Origin: Alloyangia mangrovi
GTDB taxonomy: Bacteria > Pseudomonadota > Alphaproteobacteria > Rhodobacterales > Rhodobacteraceae
Length of the DNA stretch: 64,000 nt
Direction: 5' to 3'
Assembly: GCF_002300555.2 (NCBI RefSeq)
Contig: NZ_NTHN02000002.1
Location: 1 to 64,000 of the forward strand
Within the stretch, counting starts at the first letter, position 1; every line of letters starts with the position of its first letter. Both the position numbers and the translations under genes were made by a program. Under the pieces are notes generated by a model. That model did no database searches. It was not told the DNA's origin and was given only the letters and a program-made list of their open reading frames with translations. Below are positions 2,445-53,238 of this stretch, in pieces.

Positions 2445-3141
2445 ATGCCGACGCAGGAACTTGTCATACTCGTGCCCCTGGCGATCAAGTCGGTAATCGG
2501 CGCGCTGCGCGGTTGCATGGAAGAGGCCGCGGGCGTGTCACTGCGGCCGGTGCATGATCTCAACCCGGCGATCGCCGAGCGCGTCTTCTCGGGCCGGCGT
2601 GGTGACATCGGTTTGAGCAACCCGCAATACGTCCGGCAGCTCACCGACGCGGGCTACGTGGACCCTGCCGCGCACCGGGCCTTTGGCCGAGTACGGCTCG
2701 CCGTGGCCCGCAAGCACGGAACCGGCGGGCCGGTGTTGACCGGGGCCGAGGAAATCGTCGCCCTGCTGACATCGGCGCAGAGCATCGGCTACACCGGGGC
2801 TGGCACCAGCGGACGCACTTTTCTGGGCGTCTTGGGGCGGCTCGGAATCGTTGCGGATGTGGGGCCGCGCTGCCGGCCGATGGGGGGGCGGTGCTCCGGT
2901 GGCGGCGGTCGCGGCGGGAGAGATCGAACTCGCCGTCGCCCCGCTGACGACCATTCTCAGCAGCCCCGGCGTCGAGCCGGGGGCGATCTTCCCCGATGCG
3001 CTCGAAACGCATATCGACATGTCGGTCTTCGTCACGCGAACCGCCGCCGCTGAGGCGATGGCGGTTCTCGAATTCCTCACCTCGCCGGCGCTCGACGCGC
3101 AGCTCGCGGCGGCCGGGGTTTCCCGCTTCGAGCTGGGCTGA
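2445..3141 (+). CDS. ModA-like periplasmic substrate-binding protein (frameshifted as read)
   Basis: Reading opens at ATG 2445 (MPTQELVILVPLAIKS) and runs through VSLRPVHDLNPAIAERVFSG and IGYTGAGTSGRTFLG. It breaks at a run of seven G (2882-2888). Removing one G joins it to the downstream frame (GGGAPVAAVAAGEIELAVAP...FLTSPALDAQLAA, stop 3141), giving 231 residues. The layout resembles molybdate-type (ModA) extracellular solute-binding proteins. No clear signal peptide is visible, which is unusual for an ABC binding protein, and no permease or ATPase is adjacent. It may act in the cytoplasm or be an orphan. The break is probably a homopolymer sequencing error. Confidence 0.6.
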
Positions 3142-3162
3142 GGTCTGTCCGAAGCGCAGGGG

Positions 3163-3810
3163 TCAGGTGAGGCCCAGCTCGCCCAGAAGACGCGCGGCCT
3201 CGGCATAGGGCGAGGCGAGCACGGTCTTGTCCTCTCCAGGGTGGAAGACGACGCGGGTGGTGGTGTGCATCGGCTTGGGGCTTACGATCTCGACCTTGGG
3301 CCCGGTCTTGACGGTCTCGGCCTGCCAGCTCCGCGCGAGCGCGATCTGCGCGCCCTTGGTGGTGCCGTAGTGGCCGTAGAACCGTTGGCCAGCGTGGTCG
3401 TCCTCGAAGAAGACCGCACGGCCCTCTGCGCCGAGCAGCGGTGTGATGTAGGGGATCAGCACGCCGGTCGCGGTCAGGTTGGTCGCGATCGACTTCGCCC
3501 AGTCCTTCTGGTCCAGGTGATTGGCCGGGGCCAGCGGCGCGGCATGCACAGCAGTGTGCAGCCAGAGCGCAATGCCGCCCCAGCGGTCCCAGACCGAGCG
3601 GCAGAGTTGCGCCATGGCCTCGGGCTTGGTGATGTCCATGGGGGCAAGCGTCGCTGCCCCGCCCTTGGCCTTGATGCGGTCGTCGAGATCCTCGAGCCCA
3701 CCGACGGTGCGGCCGACGGCGACGATGTGGTACTCCGGCGCGAGCGCGTCGGCGAGGGCAAAGCCCAGCCCGCGCGAGGCTCCGGTGACAAGGGCGATCT
3801 TTTCACTCAT
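3163..3810 (-). CDS. SDR-family NAD(P)-dependent oxidoreductase
   Basis: 215 residues from ATG 3810. The Rossmann glycine motif TGASRGLG is at residues 9-16, preceded by IALV. The catalytic region is degenerate: YGHYGTTKGAQIALARSW holds a YxxxK (YGTTK) and RAVFFEDD takes the place of the usual Ser strand. Short-chain dehydrogenases of this form are often annotated as oxidoreductases of unknown substrate in Rhodobacteraceae, close to purF and surE. In-frame reading continues upstream but without SDR similarity, so the ATG before SEKIALVTG is chosen. Confidence 0.85.
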   Translation of the reverse strand: MSEKIALVTGASRGLGFALADALAPEYHIVAVGRTVGGLEDLDDRIKAKGGAATLAPMDITKPEAMAQLCRSVWDRWGGIALWLHTAVHAAPLAPANHLDQKDWAKSIATNLTATGVLIPYITPLLGAEGRAVFFEDDHAGQRFYGHYGTTKGAQIALARSWQAETVKTGPKVEIVSPKPMHTTTRVVFHPGEDKTVLASPYAEAARLLGELGLT

Positions 3811-41066: not shown

Positions 41067-41326
41067 CTCCGCTCCCGGCACTTCATGGCGAGCTCTCGCA
41101 TGGTGATCTCGACCGCGCCGGCCGCGACCGCCTTCGCACGGAGCCCCATGCCGACATCGAAGTGCTCGTCGGGGGTGCCGCGCTTCTGCAGCCACTTGCG
41201 TTGCAGGCCGATCCGGTCTGCCATCTCCAGCAGCTCTTCGGTGCTGTCCGCGATCATGTGGCTCATCTTCATATGGTGGAAGCGACCCATCTCGGTGCGG
41301 TACATGTCGTCGACGTAGACGGTCAT
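41063..41326 (-). CDS. DUF4031 domain phage protein
   Basis: 87 residues starting MTVYVDDMYRTEMGRFHHMKMSHMIADS, the characteristic opening of DUF4031, seen in phages and some bacteria. The enzymatic function is unknown. It overlaps the methyltransferase stop by four bases. Confidence 0.85.
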   Translation of the reverse strand: MTVYVDDMYRTEMGRFHHMKMSHMIADSTEELLEMADRIGLQRKWLQKRGTPDEHFDVGMGLRAKAVAAGAVEITMRELAMKCRERR

Positions 41327-43530
41327 GCTGCCATCTCCCGCTCGACCACCAGGTGCGCGCAGTTCGACCGCACCAGCGCCTCGGCCAGCGGCGGGCAGAC
41401 GCTGTTCCCGACGCAGGAAACCTGCACGTCCTTCGGGAAGGCCTCGAACTCCCACTCGCCGTGCCGCCGGTGCCAGACGCCCTCGATCACGTAGTCGGAC
41501 GGGAAGCCCTGTGCGTTGAAGAGCTCGCGCGGGGTGAGCATGCGCATGCCGACATCGACGATGACAAAGGACGTGCCGCCGATATCTACGGTGACGAACT
41601 CGCGGTCATCCCAGAGGCCGTGCTGGCGTAGCAGCTCGGCCACCTGGCGGGCCCGCGGCGCGTGGCTGTCGTTGAAGGGCGGGGCCGCAAGCTCGGCCTG
41701 CATCGGGCCCATGCGGTCTTTGGTGGTGACCGTGTGCATGGGCTCATGTGCCGGGGCGCCGTCACCGGTGCCGTAGTATTTTGCCAGCCAAGCCGCGACC
41801 GGTGTCTGGTGGCTGCCCGAGCTGGTGACGGTCGAGATCGGCTCATCGGCCGGTCGGCCCGGGTGAACGCCGCGCCCGTCGTTGTTCTGCTGGGCGAGGA
41901 AGGCCGCGACCGGGTATTGCTTCACGCCGCCAGCGACGATGGTATTCAGCGGCGCGGTGATGTCGAGTGCGCGCGGCGCTTGGCCTTGGCGCTCACCGTT
42001 CCCGACGTGCACCATCGTCGCGGCGATCATGCTGTTCTGATCTTTCTTGCTCGCGCAGATGGTGTGGTGGGGATCCTTGATCGACCGGCAGCGCCCGCCT
42101 TGCTGGGCGTAGGTCAGCACAGGCGCGACGATGGCGCTGTGATTGCCTTCCGCGCAGATGGTGGGGTGTGGCTGCGCCATGGGGCCCATGCGGCGCGTGG
42201 TGCCCTTCAGGCTGGCCAGCAGCGGCGCAAGGACGCCGAGCGGTGCCGCGCCGCCCGGGCGCTTGAGGTAGCTGTTGGCGGTCACGGTGGGGAGCGTGGC
42301 GGCGATGTCGCTGCCGGTGGCTCCGGTCATGAACTTGGCGATGGACGGAGCGATAAGCGTCAGCCCTGCGCCGCCCGCCGTCACGGTGTGGGCGGGCTCG
42401 GTGACGCCTTGCCACGGCTTCCGGCTGTTGCGCATCGTGGCCATGACGGGCGCGACCACGGCATGCGAGATGCCGCCCGCCGTGACCACGCCGTGTGGCT
42501 CGGTCAGCGGGTATTCCCGGCGTCCTCCGCTGTCGCCGTGTGCGATGCTCACCAGCGACGGGATGACCAGTGCCTTCTCGCCGCGGTTCGCGCCGGTCAC
42601 GGTGCGCAGAGGATCGTCGAGATCCTCGGTCCGCGCCCCATGGGTCAGGTTGACCAGGAAGGGCCGCTCCGCGTCGAGCACGTAGCGGCGCAGCCCCTTG
42701 GCCACCCGGGCGAGGGTGTTGTCCGCGAGCGGGCGCACGGCGCGCAGCCCGTGCTTGCCCATGATCGCGGCCTTGGTGTCGAAGATGCTCGGGCAGGGCA
42801 GCGACCAGTCGATGCATTCCGCCGCGGTGCGCCAAGGCTTCAGCTTGCCCGCCTTCACCTCGTCCGAGCCCGGCGCGCCGTGGGTCGGCGCGGGCCATGC
42901 GATGGGCAGGCCGTCGAACCGGATGGCGACAAAGAGCCGCTTGCGGATCGTGGGGGCGCCGTAGTCGCAGGCGCGCAGCTCGCGGCGCTCGATCTTGCCG
43001 CCGAGCTTGCGGATCGCCTTGCACCAGGCGGCGAACGTCTCGCCCTTGCGCGCCGGGCACGGCATCAAGCCACGCTCGGTCTCGATCAGAGGTCCCCAGC
43101 CCGCGAACTCCTCGACGTTCTCCATCAGAACCACGTCGACACGCCCGCCGCTCTTCTGGATGCGCTCGATCCAGCCGGGGATGATCCACGCGAGGTCGCG
43201 GATGTTGCGCGCCACGGGCTTGCCGCCCTTGGCCTTGCTGAAGTGCTTGCAGTCCGGGCTGAACCACATCAGGCCGATGTGCTTGCCCGCGAGGTGGTCG
43301 AGCGGATCGACGCGATAGACATTCTCGGACAGGTGCAGCGTCTCGGGGTGGTTCGCCGCGTGCAGCGCCAGCGCCGCCGGGTTGTGGTTGATCGCGATGT
43401 CGGGCCCGCGGCCAAGCGCCATTTCGATGCCGGTGCTGGCCCCGCCGCCGCCGGCGAAGCTGTCGACGATCAGCGGCAGGCCGGTGAAGGCGCGGTCAGG
43501 AAGCTCGGGGAAGTCGAAGGTGTCGCGCAT
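41323..43530 (-). CDS. Phage C5 cytosine DNA methyltransferase with internal repeats
   Basis: 735 residues from ATG 43530, which overlaps the stop of the previous gene (TGATG) and is preceded by GAGGGG; a GTG nine bases upstream is less likely. SAM motif I is DSFAGGGGASTGIEMALG. The catalytic cysteine lies in MWFSPDCKHFSKAKGGKP, where PDC replaces the usual PC. ENVEEFAGWGP is the ENV motif, and LRACDYGAPTIRKRLF follows. Before the C-terminal end (LMRMLTPRELFNAQGFP) lie about nine repeats of a P-x-x-T-(V/I)-(T/C)-A unit. It probably marks phage DNA against host restriction. Confidence 0.92.
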   Translation of the reverse strand: MRDTFDFPELPDRAFTGLPLIVDSFAGGGGASTGIEMALGRGPDIAINHNPAALALHAANHPETLHLSENVYRVDPLDHLAGKHIGLMWFSPDCKHFSKAKGGKPVARNIRDLAWIIPGWIERIQKSGGRVDVVLMENVEEFAGWGPLIETERGLMPCPARKGETFAAWCKAIRKLGGKIERRELRACDYGAPTIRKRLFVAIRFDGLPIAWPAPTHGAPGSDEVKAGKLKPWRTAAECIDWSLPCPSIFDTKAAIMGKHGLRAVRPLADNTLARVAKGLRRYVLDAERPFLVNLTHGARTEDLDDPLRTVTGANRGEKALVIPSLVSIAHGDSGGRREYPLTEPHGVVTAGGISHAVVAPVMATMRNSRKPWQGVTEPAHTVTAGGAGLTLIAPSIAKFMTGATGSDIAATLPTVTANSYLKRPGGAAPLGVLAPLLASLKGTTRRMGPMAQPHPTICAEGNHSAIVAPVLTYAQQGGRCRSIKDPHHTICASKKDQNSMIAATMVHVGNGERQGQAPRALDITAPLNTIVAGGVKQYPVAAFLAQQNNDGRGVHPGRPADEPISTVTSSGSHQTPVAAWLAKYYGTGDGAPAHEPMHTVTTKDRMGPMQAELAAPPFNDSHAPRARQVAELLRQHGLWDDREFVTVDIGGTSFVIVDVGMRMLTPRELFNAQGFPSDYVIEGVWHRRHGEWEFEAFPKDVQVSCVGNSVCPPLAEALVRSNCAHLVVEREMAA

Positions 43531-43688
43531 CAGAGCCACCCCTCGAGCCAGGCCGACGCCGCGCGGATCAGGGCCGCCAGCTGCTCAACGCCGGTTGCGA
43601 TGACCCAGAGGCCCAGCAGGACCAGGATCAGGAACACTGGCACGGCGAACCACCAGCCCTCAGGGAGAAGAGGATCCTTGCGGTCCAT
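43530..43688 (-). CDS. Small membrane protein, or C-terminal part of a broken 92-residue gene
   Basis: 52 residues from ATG 43688 with a single strong transmembrane helix (FAVPVFLILVLLGLWVIATGV). Its stop overlaps the methyltransferase start. Adding one G (C on the coding strand) to the six-base run at 43730-43735 would fuse it to the upstream frame as SLPPLREYEGDGLRDKIEMDRKDPLLP, giving a 92-residue protein. Both readings are possible. Confidence 0.5.
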   Translation of the reverse strand: MDRKDPLLPEGWWFAVPVFLILVLLGLWVIATGVEQLAALIRAASAWLEGWL

Positions 43689-46699: not shown

Positions 46700-46863
46700 G
46701 CTGCTTGCTCCTTCTGGGAAAGAACCGCCGGCGCATCAGCGGTCGCATCCTGCAGGGCGCGTTCCGCAATGGCGGTGGTGGTTTCGGGGTAGGCGCTGGC
46801 GAAGTCGGCCAACGCGGCGTTGATGTGGCGGTTAAGCAGGCTCTGCAGGGCGCTCTCGGTCAC
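46696..46863 (-). CDS. Small helical phage protein, GTG start
   Basis: 55 residues from GTG 46863 (MTESALQSLLNRHINAALAD), ending at a stop that overlaps the ERF start (ATGA). Overlaps at both ends support it. No domain is recognised. Confidence 0.55.
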   Translation of the reverse strand: MTESALQSLLNRHINAALADFASAYPETTTAIAERALQDATADAPAVLSQKEQAA

Positions 46864-47192
46864 TTCTGGCTCCACTCGGCCATGCAGTCCTCGCAGCAGA
46901 AGACGAACTGCCTGTCGTCAATCGCGGCCATGTTGGTGTCATCCTCGGCGACTTCGCCGCACTGCTCGCAGATGGTCACTTCCTCGGCGCAGATGCCGCA
47001 GACCGGCCCGCCGTAGCGGCGTTCCACGGCGTCCAGCGTCGGCGCGTCGAACTCGGTCGGATGGCTGCGGGCCATTTCCTCTGCCCAGAGCGTGTCGTCG
47101 TTGCAGCAGGCGCAGGTGAGGGTGGCTTGGCCGAAGGCGCCCAAGGCGAGAACGCTGGTGCTGATTTCTGGCGTGCGGTGGTGAAAGCTCAT
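46860..47192 (-). CDS. Cysteine-rich zinc-ribbon phage protein
   Basis: 110 residues. Eight or more paired cysteines (TCACCND, PVCGICAEEVTICEQCGE, FCCEDCMAEW) suggest two zinc sites. It is the first gene of the leftward early operon, 56 bp from the predicted transcription start. GGGAG lies upstream of the ATG. The function is unknown. Confidence 0.7.
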   Translation of the reverse strand: MSFHHRTPEISTSVLALGAFGQATLTCACCNDDTLWAEEMARSHPTEFDAPTLDAVERRYGGPVCGICAEEVTICEQCGEVAEDDTNMAAIDDRQFVFCCEDCMAEWSQK

Positions 47193-47254: not shown

Positions 47255-47309
47255 GATGTAGCGAAAATCGCTACCTCACGCAAGGGGAAATGTAGCTTTA
47301 TTCGCTACA
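47255..47309 (-). promoter_or_regulatory. Leftward early promoter PL with two CI operators
   Basis: Operator copies at 47257-47275 (TGTAGCGAAAATCGCTACC) and 47291-47309 (TGTAGCTTTATTCGCTACA), 34 bp apart. On the leftward strand TTGCGT (47278-47283), a 17-bp spacer and TACATC (47255-47260) form a promoter with the first operator inside the spacer. Repressor bound there would block RNA polymerase. Confidence 0.8.
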
Positions 47310-47370
47310 CCACTTCTCGCTATCCGACTCGGCGTGCTACACTGCCCCTGTCAGCGCTGTGCTGGCGGCA

Positions 47371-47394
47371 AAGAAAAACCCCGCCGGAGCGGGG
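47371..47394 (-). terminator. Terminator after the cI-moron transcript
   Basis: On the leftward transcript CCCCGC-TCCG-GCGGGG is followed by TTTTTCTTT. It lies 28 bp past the stop of the 310-residue gene and upstream of PL, so it isolates lysogenic transcription from the early operon. Confidence 0.88.
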
Positions 47395-47422
47395 GTAGCA
47401 AGCCTGACCGATGGATCGTTAG

Positions 47423-48355
47423 CTATGCCAGATGATCAATGGGGGCGAACGATAGCAAGTGGATACGCTTCGGTCGCAGAGCTCCGTCAGCGCCGCGATT
47501 GCACTCGACCACCAGGTTCGCGATTACACTGCGATGATTGGCAAGCTTGTCAGGGTCCACCGTTGGGTAAAGGTCCATGGGAAGTCGTTTTGGGAAACGG
47601 TCATCCCCGACTATCGCCGCGCCCCATCCCTGCTTGTGCCTGTCGCGATCAGTGCCCCTCAAGTCCAGTCGAGCGAACTCCAACTCGACATTCTCACTGT
47701 CGTCAACGGCCTCGAGATCTGCGTCATTGGGGAACTCCTGCAGTACGTCTGAAGAGATGTCGGGTGCGTTCCGCATCTCAATGGACTCACCAGGGCATTT
47801 TCGTGCTGGCCGCAAGAAGTCTGCAACTTTTGGTATAAGCGCCCTGCGTCGAGCGGGTGGCAGGCTGCGCTCGAGGGCCTTCTCGACCTGATGTTCATCG
47901 ACGCCGACGATGGCACCGATTTGCTGGATTACGACGTTGTTCTCGCCGTGGATGTGAATGGAGGGCGCATTGGACTCTTTTGATCTGGTGACGCGTTCGT
48001 ATCCGTAGCGCGCAACCATATATGTTGCGCCCAAAGCCAGTAGCGTGACCAGCCCCTCGTACTCTTGCGGTATGTCGACACCAAACATTTCTTCAATGCT
48101 GCCCGCTACTTTGTCCTCAATCTGGGTCTGATATTTGCCGTAGACTTCGACCAGGAGGTCCCAAGCCAGCGACGACGTTGTGATTGATTCTACACGTATT
48201 TTGGAGCTGTCATATCGAAAATTCTCGTCTAACTCGGAGAGAATTTTGAGCCCTTCTTCCAGCAAAGTTTTCTGAGCAGAGAGTGAGAGAATGAGTTCAT
48301 CGACTGTGAAGTCGTGACCGGTGTAACGGCCTGCATGATGAAATTGTAAACGCAC
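47423..48355 (-). CDS. Membrane protein of unknown function co-oriented with cI (lysogenic moron)
   Basis: 310 residues. The start MRLQFHHAGRYTGHDFTVDELILSL recalls a widespread uncharacterised family with an FHxAG...H opening. A single hydrophobic segment (GLVTLLALGATYMVARYGY) lies at ~105-123, next is SIHIHGENNVVIQQIG, then a charged, beta-rich C-terminal domain. It starts 70 bp after cI on the same strand with no terminator between, so it should be expressed from the resident prophage. That fits superinfection exclusion, defence or host-fitness roles. GC is lower than in the neighbours. Confidence 0.65.
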   Translation of the reverse strand: MRLQFHHAGRYTGHDFTVDELILSLSAQKTLLEEGLKILSELDENFRYDSSKIRVESITTSSLAWDLLVEVYGKYQTQIEDKVAGSIEEMFGVDIPQEYEGLVTLLALGATYMVARYGYERVTRSKESNAPSIHIHGENNVVIQQIGAIVGVDEHQVEKALERSLPPARRRALIPKVADFLRPARKCPGESIEMRNAPDISSDVLQEFPNDADLEAVDDSENVELEFARLDLRGTDRDRHKQGWGAAIVGDDRFPKRLPMDLYPTVDPDKLANHRSVIANLVVECNRGADGALRPKRIHLLSFAPIDHLA

Positions 48356-48425
48356 TAACTCGTTACCCTATGGTCGTCACTTGTCGATTTTTTTTGCTGA
48401 TACTGAAGAAGTTCAGGCGGAAATT

Positions 48426-49091
48426 TTACGCCTTCTTCGCGAGTTCGGCCGGCCAGTGCAGACGAACCCGCGCTGCCCACTTGAGGCGGACATTCCACAT
48501 CGTGTTGGCGCCGGGGTTCAGCGAGATCAGGTGAAACAGCCCTGGTTCGTCGCCAGCCTTCACCTGCTTCACCCAGCCCATTCCGGCCACATCTTCCACG
48601 ACGCAGCGATGACCGACAACTTCTTCAGGCACGCCATCGTGCGTCTCGCGGGTGTAGAAGAGCAGGTCGCCCGCGCTGTACACGGGCTCCATGCTGTCGC
48701 CGACCACCTCCACGGCAACGACACCGTGTGGCGATAGGCCGGGCGGGCATTCGACCTGAGGGCCGTCGCCCTTGGTGTAGGCGTCGAAGACGGGGACTTG
48801 CGCGCCTGCACCGACCTTGCCGGCAATCGAGATCGTGTTAGTCGCCGGGTCTTCTCCTGGCACCTCGAAGCCCGTGATCTCCGAAATGTGCAAGAGCTCC
48901 TCGGCTGAGATGGCACGTTTTCCCAGAACCATCTTGTTGATGGTCGATCGGTCAACCTTTTTGGGAACTGCCGCGTCCAGTCGCTCGGCCAGCGCAGATT
49001 GGCTAAGCCCTGAATGTTCAAGGGCTTGAGAGAGCCACTCATGGAGCGGCGTGGATATGGGGGCTCGCGCGATCATGTCGGCGAGCAACAT
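48426..49091 (-). CDS. CI-like S24/LexA-type phage repressor
   Basis: 221 residues from ATG 49091; ATG at 49112 or 49076 are alternatives and none has a good ribosome site. The N-terminal HTH reads LSQALEHSGLSQSALAERLD...DRSTINKMVLGKRAIS. The C-terminal S24 peptidase domain has cleavage region GKVGAGAQVPVF, serine in VVGDSMEPVYSAGD, and lysine in WVKQVKAG. Self-cleavage after RecA activation would induce the prophage. It is divergent from cro with two operators between. Confidence 0.9.
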   Translation of the reverse strand: MLLADMIARAPISTPLHEWLSQALEHSGLSQSALAERLDAAVPKKVDRSTINKMVLGKRAISAEELLHISEITGFEVPGEDPATNTISIAGKVGAGAQVPVFDAYTKGDGPQVECPPGLSPHGVVAVEVVGDSMEPVYSAGDLLFYTRETHDGVPEEVVGHRCVVEDVAGMGWVKQVKAGDEPGLFHLISLNPGANTMWNVRLKWAARVRLHWPAELAKKA

Positions 49092-49113
49092 AGCTGGGCT
49101 TGTGATTAGCATC

Positions 49114-49168
49114 TGTAACGAAAATCGCTACAGGCCGCCTTGCGTTGCGTAGCTAAAATCGCTACAAC
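49114..49168 (+). promoter_or_regulatory. cI-cro operator region with promoter PR
   Basis: Operator copies at 49114-49132 (TGTAACGAAAATCGCTACA) and 49148-49166 (CGTAGCTAAAATCGCTACA), again exactly 34 bp apart. TTGCGT (49140-49145), 17 bp and TACAAC (49163-49168) form PR with the second operator in its spacer. The -10 ends six bases before the cro ATG. Confidence 0.85.
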
Positions 49169-49174
49169 TGCCAC

Positions 49175-49405
49175 ATGGAACCCGCAAGCAGTATTATCTC
49201 GGCCCTTGGTGGCCCAACTGCGGTAGCCGAGGCAATCGGCATTCACCGCACACGCGTCTCGATGTGGCAGGCCCCGCGGGCTCGCGGCGGCACCAATGGC
49301 CTCATCCCCTATCGCCATGTCTCCAAGATCATGGAGTTGGCGCGCGTGAAGGGGGTCGACCTGCAGGCCGCAGATTTCATCCCGTGCGCTCAAGGCGCCG
49401 CCTGA
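49175..49405 (+). CDS. Cro-like HTH regulator (leaderless mRNA expected)
   Basis: 76 residues. IISALGGPTAVAEAIGIHRTRVSMWQAP is a YdaS/Cro-type helix-turn-helix. There is no Shine-Dalgarno site. The -10 box of PR ends at 49168, so transcription should begin at or next to the ATG. It should counter CI at the same operators after induction. Confidence 0.87.
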   Translation: MEPASSIISALGGPTAVAEAIGIHRTRVSMWQAPRARGGTNGLIPYRHVSKIMELARVKGVDLQAADFIPCAQGAA

Positions 49406-49474: not shown

Positions 49475-49876
49475 ATGCAGGTATACCGCGGCCCGGCGAT
49501 CAGAGCGCTCTACAAGCAGCTCGTCGCGGACTTCGGCGGCGTCGAGGCTGCGGCGCACCTTATAGGTTGCGAGAAGGGCACGATCTCGAAGCAGATGAAC
49601 GGCCACGCCGCGATCGGCGCCGAGCACTACGGAGCGCTCGAAGACGAGGTGGGACGCTGGCCCATCACTGAACTGATGTTCGCCCGCAGAGAGCGGAGTT
49701 CCCAAGAAGTCGAACGTGATGCCCTGATCATGAGCGCAATGCGCGAGCTGGCCGATGTTGGCCCTGCGCTGCTCGCTCTCGCAGCGAAAGGAGACGCAGC
49801 CGCGATCATGAAGGAAGGGCCAGAAGCGCTTGAAGTGCTCAATCGTCTGGTTCGCCACGTGGAGAACCAGGAATGA
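49475..49876 (+). CDS. Phage HTH regulator, possibly CII-like
   Basis: 133 residues from ATG 49475. The N-terminal region LVADFGGVEAAAHLIGCEKGTISKQMNGHAAIGAEHYGAL is a helix-turn-helix. The C-terminal half is helical. Second gene of the rightward operon, the position of cII in lambdoid phages. A CII function is not proven. Confidence 0.7.
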   Translation: MQVYRGPAIRALYKQLVADFGGVEAAAHLIGCEKGTISKQMNGHAAIGAEHYGALEDEVGRWPITELMFARRERSSQEVERDALIMSAMRELADVGPALLALAAKGDAAAIMKEGPEALEVLNRLVRHVENQE

Positions 49877-52224: not shown

Positions 52225-52657
52225 AGCGGTGCAACGCGTGGTGAACGCTCTCAGCCAACCGGCAGACCCTGTGCGCATCATGGCCCGCGTCGGCGCGCTC
52301 CTGGAACCGTACTACGACAAGGGAACTCCTCAGAGCATCCGGGAGATCGAGATGGAGGACTGGGCCGACGCGCTGGGGAAATACCCGTACTGGGCAATCG
52401 AGCGCGCCGCGAAATGGTGGAAGTCCGAAGGGAACCCTCAGCGACGCAAGCGCCCGCTCGAAGGCGACATCGCGGCCCGCTGCAAGGTCGAACTGATGGC
52501 TGTCCGCGCCGCAGAAATCCGGGAACGCGGAGGATGGCGCGGGAACTTCATGAGCCACGAGGAACGCGGTGAGCCCTGCAGCCCGGAGGCGGCCAGCGAA
52601 ATCCTCGCTCGCGCCGGCTTCACGGCCAAAACGTTCGGGCAAGAGGCGGCAGAGTGA
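52112..52657 (+). CDS. Phage protein linked to replication, unknown function
   Basis: 181 residues from ATG 52112. Helical, with EDWADALGKYPYWAIERAAKWWKSE in the middle. Similar proteins follow O-like replication genes in alphaproteobacterial phages. It overlaps the previous gene by 113 bp and the next by four. Confidence 0.65.
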   Translation: MTTAVAILDTRQPAQVDKGLAFLTRVLQSQRVVPAEREAVQRVVNALSQPADPVRIMARVGALLEPYYDKGTPQSIREIEMEDWADALGKYPYWAIERAAKWWKSEGNPQRRKRPLEGDIAARCKVELMAVRAAEIRERGGWRGNFMSHEERGEPCSPEAASEILARAGFTAKTFGQEAAE

Positions 52658-53238
52658 CCGAGAGCAAGGCATATCCCAGCCTCGAGGCGGTGCCGCTGTT
52701 CAAGTACGGGCTGATCATGGCGGACCCGCCCTGGCACTACGAGCTGAGATCGGCAGCCGGGGAGGCCAAGGCGCCGCAGGCCCAGTACGAGTGCGCGCCT
52801 CTCGACTGGATCAAAGAACTGCGCGTCGCCGACATCGCAGCGCCGGACTGCGTCCTCTGGCTCTGGGCCACCAACCCGCTCCTGCCGCAGGCACTGGAGG
52901 TGATGAGGGCTTGGGGCTTCACCTTCAAGACCGCGGGGCACTGGAGCAAGAAAACGAAGAACGGCAAGCAGGCCTTCGGCACCGGCTATCTGCTGCGCTG
53001 CGCGGGCGAGCCGTTCCTCATCGGCACGATCGGCAACCCCAAGACCTCGAAGGCGGTGCGCTCCGTCATAGAGGGGCCGATCCGCGAACACAGCCGAAAG
53101 CCGGACGAGGCGTTCGCGGCGGCCGAGCGGCTCTGCCCCGATGTCTGGCGCATCGAGCTTTTCAGCCGCCAGCGGCGCCCGGGATGGGACGTGATGGGCA
53201 ACGAAACCCACAAATTTGAGCAGGAAGAGGCAGCATGA
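52654..53238 (+). CDS. MT-A70 family adenine methyltransferase
   Basis: 194 residues from GTG 52654, overlapping the previous stop. The catalytic motif is ADPPWHY. The rest (CVLWLWATNPLLPQALEVMRAWGF, EHSRKPDEAF) matches MT-A70/IME4-like N6-adenine methyltransferases of phages. Together with the C5 methyltransferase it can give the phage two kinds of DNA mark. Confidence 0.92.
   Translation: MTESKAYPSLEAVPLFKYGLIMADPPWHYELRSAAGEAKAPQAQYECAPLDWIKELRVADIAAPDCVLWLWATNPLLPQALEVMRAWGFTFKTAGHWSKKTKNGKQAFGTGYLLRCAGEPFLIGTIGNPKTSKAVRSVIEGPIREHSRKPDEAFAAAERLCPDVWRIELFSRQRRPGWDVMGNETHKFEQEEAA

Follow-up and report, generated by a model that had tools for sequence, protein, structure and literature searches.

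In phage lambda, the early promoter PR is followed by the genes for Cro and then CII, an accessory gene lies between cI and PL, and each early promoter is served by three operators spaced by about 23 to 24 bp. In Rhizobium phage 16-3, according to its annotation (NC_011103) and to PMC12429752, there are two left and two right operators, of which one per pair lies in or over a promoter; these operators are 12 to 14 bp long, and their starts are 17 bp (OL) or 26 bp (OR) apart. The C repressor combines an HTH with an S24 domain. For the telomere phage PY54, leaderless cI and cro mRNAs have been mapped, as reported in PMC4488713.

Here, we analysed a window of 64,000 nucleotides from Alloyangia mangrovi, in which an earlier note, made from the sequence alone, had proposed a phage immunity switch. 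According to our analysis, it is highly probable that the region is the immunity switch of a temperate phage of the lambda/16-3 type, in which CI bound to paired operators represses PR and PL; very probably this lysis/lysogeny switch is of an ordinary kind, with a spacing rule of its own. The gene content fits the proposal, with a CI-like repressor, a weakly matching Cro-like protein, a CII-like protein and an Erf-type annealing protein, and the operators, their 34-bp spacing and the TTG of the -35 element are conserved. The features of the region are collected in Table 1.

Table 1. Features of the putative switch region, in order of position in the window (promoters and gene functions as predicted)
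Feature	Position	Strand	Details
First gene after PL	46860..47192	-	110 aa, zinc-finger-like C-terminus; TRASH-type domain, E 3.5e-5, below Pfam cut-off
PL	47255..47283	-	TTGCGT 47283-47278, 17 bp, TACATC 47260-47255; faces leftward genes
OL1	47257..47275		Over PL; 15 bp in spacer and 4 bp in -10
OL2	47291..47309		Second left operator, 34 bp from OL1
Terminator-like hairpin with T-run	47379..47394	-	Between 310-aa gene and PL
310-aa gene between cI and PL	47423..48355	-	phrog_4506 (unknown function), E 2.9e-14
cI-like repressor gene	48426..49112	-	228 aa from first ATG
OR2	49114..49132		34 bp from OR1; adjoins first cI start codon
PR	49140..49168	+	TTGCGT 49140-49145, 17 bp, TACAAC 49163-49168
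OR1	49148..49166		Over PR; 15 bp in spacer and 4 bp in -10; kept in relatives
cro-like gene	49175..49405	+	76 aa, mRNA predicted to be leaderless
CII-like gene	49475..49876	+	133 aa from that ATG; phrog_101, E 0.0009

A search of the window for the palindrome TGTAGCGA-N3-TCGCTACA with at most three mismatches returned exactly four 19-bp near-palindromic sites, OL1, OL2, OR2 and OR1, at the starts given in the earlier note (47257, 47291, 49114 and 49148). In order of position they carry 1, 2, 1 and 2 mismatches, so that the range of 0 to 4 given there has to be corrected and none of the sites is perfect. The two pairs had also been called identical, which is right for the spacing, OL1 and OL2 as well as OR1 and OR2 being 34 bp apart, and wrong for their sequences, which differ. 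The search was extended to the whole genome (5,533,102 bases in 169 contigs) at the same threshold, and the pattern matched only these four places, all in the window; the reversed control of the pattern gave 19 matches per strand in the same genome. Dinucleotide shuffles of the window contained on average 0.19 matches, and four were reached in 1 of 100. We also built a PWM from the right-hand sites of the window and of three relatives, in which the left sites of the window played no part. With this PWM the four window sites score 24.3 to 28.5 (27.8 and 24.3 for the two left sites), and 6.3 is the score of the runner-up in the window. Among 200 first-order Markov resamplings, sites with a score of at least 20 occurred at 0.005 per 64 kb, and the maximum was 22.1. 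The three operators per early promoter of the lambda type were not found in the window or the genome, which hold four sites only. As a candidate third operator of the window class we considered an additional half-site that flanks OR2 towards cI in the relative L006; it was rejected, since it lies below the PWM threshold; the window has none. The cI-side half of OR2 is GTTAC, not GCTAC, in 9 of 10 right-hand rows of the comparison (the exception is L079), and OL2 deviates from the operator consensus in the half facing PL. Because each site keeps its own character, these departures suggest that operator affinities may be graded, as in lambda.

Relatives of CI were collected from 38 loci in viral contigs and 24 loci in genome contigs. 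The names of 21 of the 24 genome records are those of genera of the Rhodobacteraceae/Roseobacter group, which makes a host from that group probable for the window too; the remaining three comprise L053, titled Nocardioides marinus, and the weakly matching L065 and L066. L053 contains a prophage of this type, and its assembly is possibly contaminated or misnamed. Scanning the full-length relatives L005, L006 and L044 with the PWM revealed exactly two 34-bp pairs in each of the three. In the viral contigs, a pattern based on these sites, with the spacing left free between 23 and 53 bp, was found in seven contigs, in six of which all pairs (10/10) are 34 bp apart; the seventh, L083, lacks such operators and is a minisatellite with a step of 30 bp. 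Four of the six contigs are new; the other two, L080 and L081, correspond to L005 and L006. Among 394 genomes of the window's family, the operator pattern occurs in 4, including the window's own genome. Taken over eight distinct prophages (the window, L005, L006, L044, G193, L078, L079 and L084), the spacing is 34 bp in 16 of 16 pairs; in this count G138 and L044 are taken as one, L082 is not counted as distinct, being identical to G193 across the right region, and L043 matches L005. A ninth prophage, G089, has its right pair 33 bp apart on a 6.2-kb contig without the left pair. The inner sites of the right and left pairs are separated by 1.8 to 7.3 kb. No such sites were found within the 12 kb examined of G128, a weak match to the N-terminus of CI, and in Ruegeria phage 45A6 the one candidate pair upstream of the repressor, with a spacing of 31 bp, is weak.

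The hexamers proposed in the earlier note for the two early promoters, with 17-bp spacers and with one promoter facing cro and the other the leftward genes, are present as positioned. The promoter-side operator had been placed within the spacer, which is correct for 15 of its 19 bases, the other 4 falling in the -10. A sigma-70 consensus scan of the region reported neither PR nor PL, and both sets of hexamers are poor matches to the consensus; the promoter claim therefore needed other evidence. In the 15-bp gap between the right operators, TTG alone is invariant in all nine rows with 34-bp spacing (which include L082 and G193, apparently one phage), and in the left gap TTGC alone is invariant in 8 of 8 rows. 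On both sides the conserved bases keep a constant offset, 17 bp upstream of the TAC of the -10. This supports a putative -35 element independently of the operators, and we think that the comparison of relatives speaks better for a switch than the promoter hexamers do. The ATG of cro lies 6 nt past the -10 in 8 of 10 right-hand rows and 7 nt past it in the other two (G089 and L079), and because this leaves a Shine-Dalgarno sequence no room, the cro mRNA is predicted to be leaderless. A convincing promoter was not found for cI. On the cI strand, GTTACAGA at OR2 is a possible -10 for PRM, and no conserved -35 was seen by eye upstream of it. For the cI-like gene, translation may truly begin at an internal ATG at 49076: G089 lacks the first ATG (49112) and has a Met near the internal one, which is kept in the others. 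With no more than a candidate -10 for the cI promoter and two candidate start codons for cI, the claim of a "near-complete description" of the CI/Cro targets goes too far.

The CI-like protein matches HTH_3 and Peptidase_S24, both above the Pfam cut-offs, as well as phrog_4. A97-G98, S140 and K182 do not vary among the 16 aligned CI proteins (16/16), which are a selection from the loci; by the roles assigned in LexA and lambda CI, we take A97-G98 to be the cleavage site and S140 and K182 the active-site positions. The protein is thus, as judged by sequence, a repressor with an HTH and an S24 self-cleavage domain, the cleavage itself being predicted. The model of CI (mean pLDDT 80, pTM 0.57) has the lambda repressor 8gmu as its best solved-fold match (E 1.1e-5), and a separate solved-structure search with CI gave nothing significant (best E 0.2). 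In the model, helix 38-48 is joined to helix 55-62 by a loop of six residues (49-54), and this loop holds an insertion missing from the other 12 aligned proteins, all of them outside the window class.

The 16 CI proteins have a nearly uniform S24 domain in common, and their N-terminal HTH regions differ strongly between groups. By eye, the HTHs fall into about six types and the operators into about twelve classes, and a single HTH type may span several operator classes. The second class (L012, L016, L017, L023 and L061) has a TTTACATAATGTAAA-like operator in the same two-plus-two layout; all five of its loci show spacings of 34 bp (PR) and 35 bp (PL), and one of the PL sites of L061 is weak. 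Ten further classes comprise 31 loci, a number that is not de-duplicated (L027 resembles L030, and L031 resembles L033) and comes from a survey in which seeds and classes were chosen by eye and L010, L040, L063 and duplicates were left out. In these classes the outer PR distance is 57-61 bp at 25 of the 31 loci, an inner PR pair at 22-25 bp is present at 17, and three PR sites pass the threshold together at 15, a single one doing so at three; the PL pair is 26-30 bp apart at 25. When all classes are taken together, the distance from the promoter-side site to the first ATG picked is 7-11 nt in 32 rows out of 41, and in the remaining 9 the automatic pick chose an earlier ATG.

A case of particular bearing on this variety is L079, whose repressor (2801-3448, minus strand) is 28% identical to the window CI and has a divergent S24 domain together with a window-like N-terminal region. 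Its operators are of the window type, 34 bp apart in both pairs, and its relative of Cro has 54% identity. The repressor is possibly a natural hybrid, and since L079 retains the 34-bp operators despite its divergent S24, operator spacing appears to be a property of the HTH/operator cassette. More generally, we give about even credence to the idea that prophages of the Rhodobacteraceae type join one S24 domain to several HTHs, each of which brings its own operators, with their own number and spacing. If operator geometry belongs to the swapped cassette, then one kind of oligomerisation domain must support several spacings. A helical-phase rule, in which 24 and 34 bp lie one turn apart and S24 demands one face of the helix, was considered and discarded; the PL pairs at 26-30 bp do not fit it. 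One conserved oligomerisation domain with varied spacings offers a way to probe what sets cooperative spacing and how immunity specificities arise, and, should the cassette idea be true, these prophages would form a natural series to gauge how far the cooperativity of one repressor stretches.

The operators over both early promoters are, by sequence, shared ones. In the switch that we propose, CI dimers would occupy the two right and the two left operators, and occupancy of the promoter-internal operator would shut RNA polymerase out of PR and PL. The second operator lies 34 bp upstream (about 3.2 helical turns), and a second dimer bound there would most likely contact the first via S24; at the right end, occupancy of OR2 would also put CI on the start of its own gene. 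Self-cleavage of CI upon damage would free PR and PL, and Cro made from PR would help to lock the lytic state. That CI is the binding protein, that Cro acts on the same sites, where transcription starts and that induction proceeds by cleavage is what we infer for this locus. Binding of CI is likewise expected to be cooperative because the operator spacing is conserved.

The part of this proposal that meets the strongest competing explanation is the role of Cro. The Cro-like gene diverges from cI and directly follows PR, a position which, with its HTH-type matches, fits cro, although these matches are weak: P22_Cro (E 0.0002; 21.4 bits, cut-off 30.2) and YdaS (E 0.0003) both remain below the Pfam cut-offs, and phrog_8008, a DNA-binding protein, is matched with E 1.8e-6. 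A solved-structure search with the Cro-like protein gave nothing significant, the best hit being 5w8y (protein XPH1, E 0.18). It is possible, if doubtful, that CI alone reads the four sites and that the Cro-like protein acts elsewhere or at one site, an explanation favoured by this weak assignment. It would also agree with what is found in other classes, where L031 and L018 have a near-identical first PR gene and differ in their operators and in the HTH domains of their CI proteins; the PR gene thus does not covary with the operators in every case, which would be odd if its protein reads the CI operators, and it need not read them there. A precedent is PY54, whose Cro binds a single operator according to PMC4488713. 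Against this explanation, all of the viral-contig loci with these operators (6/6) also carry a relative of the window's Cro, even L079 with its divergent S24.

Apart from the question of Cro, we consider it rather unlikely that the 34-bp spacing is dictated by the geometry of the promoter, with one site over the -10 and the other upstream of the -35, instead of by contact between proteins. The TTG of the -35 must indeed fit in the gap, and PR and PL are laid out alike, yet the -10 ties down the inner site only and the outer one could move; moreover, the other classes place the second PR site at 22-25 bp (17/31) and the PL pair at 26-30 bp (25/31). That the palindromes are there by chance or are structural, as hairpins or terminators, is hardly credible, for the single shuffle in 100 that reached four matches weighs little against their uniqueness in the genome and their conservation at a fixed spacing in other prophages.

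Besides cI and the Cro-like gene, the switch that we propose is flanked by genes that suit a temperate phage: an SSB gene also lies rightward of the Cro-like gene, and the leftward genes downstream of PL include the one for the Erf-type annealing protein. Among eight prophages (the window, L005, L006, L044, L072, L078, L079 and L084), the stretch from cI to PL differs in length and gene content, and some of its genes run opposite to cI. In the window, the 310-aa gene occupies the position of the lambda rex genes; its protein has no Pfam match, no PADLOC match and no relative in the phage collection, and one relative was found among the viral contigs. We scanned 12 interval proteins from six prophages (10 of them from five relatives), and in three of the six prophages a PADLOC candidate defence family was matched. 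Matches in the interval are DUF1828/PDC-M24B in L006, SocA/Panacea in L084, PDC-M41A/B with DUF5131 in L079, a protein kinase like PD-T4-6 in L044, which perhaps reflects the kinase fold alone, and, in L005 as well as in L044, proteins with RTX repeats. The interval has the look of a slot for cargo, perhaps of defence genes. Terminator-like sites in the region number 2 against a shuffle mean of 2.1, which is not above chance. Elsewhere in the window, a DNA methyltransferase-like gene at 52654-53238 (plus strand) is MT-A70 by Pfam, and 41323-43539 (minus strand) is, as we assume from its sequence motifs, also DNA methyltransferase-like.

Compared with lambda, the locus is alike in the fold of its repressor, for which 8gmu is the best match in the PDB, in having operators over PR and PL, and in the order of its genes, with a Cro-like and then a CII-like gene after PR and an accessory gene between cI and PL; it has two operators per promoter, 34 bp apart, instead of three, and, unlike in lambda, cro is predicted to be leaderless. 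Leaderless cro is shared, as a prediction here, with PY54, from which the window differs in phage, host and operators. Phage 16-3 likewise pairs its operators on the left and on the right, with one member of a pair in or over a promoter, and has a repressor with HTH and S24, so that the two-plus-two layout is not new; its operators, however, have another sequence, length and spacing, and its C protein aligns with the window CI over 34 residues of S24 only (E 0.002 in a single comparison), homology along the full length not being found. Closer in its repressor is Paracoccus phage vB_PyeM_Pyei1 (MK291445), whose CI-like protein has an S24 domain with 55% identity to the window CI over residues 86-227. 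Its candidate sites of the GGGGAA type lie at 3713 and 3739, with a weaker one at 3773 (L075), that is, 26 and 34 bp apart, the last of them falling inside the annotated start of cI. We found no earlier account of such operators in prophages of the Roseobacter group in a literature search that had most subscription papers outside its reach, and the papers that come closest, PMC7305329 and PMC8224337, do not use the word "operator" in their main text. Set beside these systems, the locus appears to be new in the sequence of its operators, in a 34-bp spacing that is conserved and equal on both sides, and in belonging to a prophage family in which one S24 domain is reused; it provides a precise and testable operator set for such a family.
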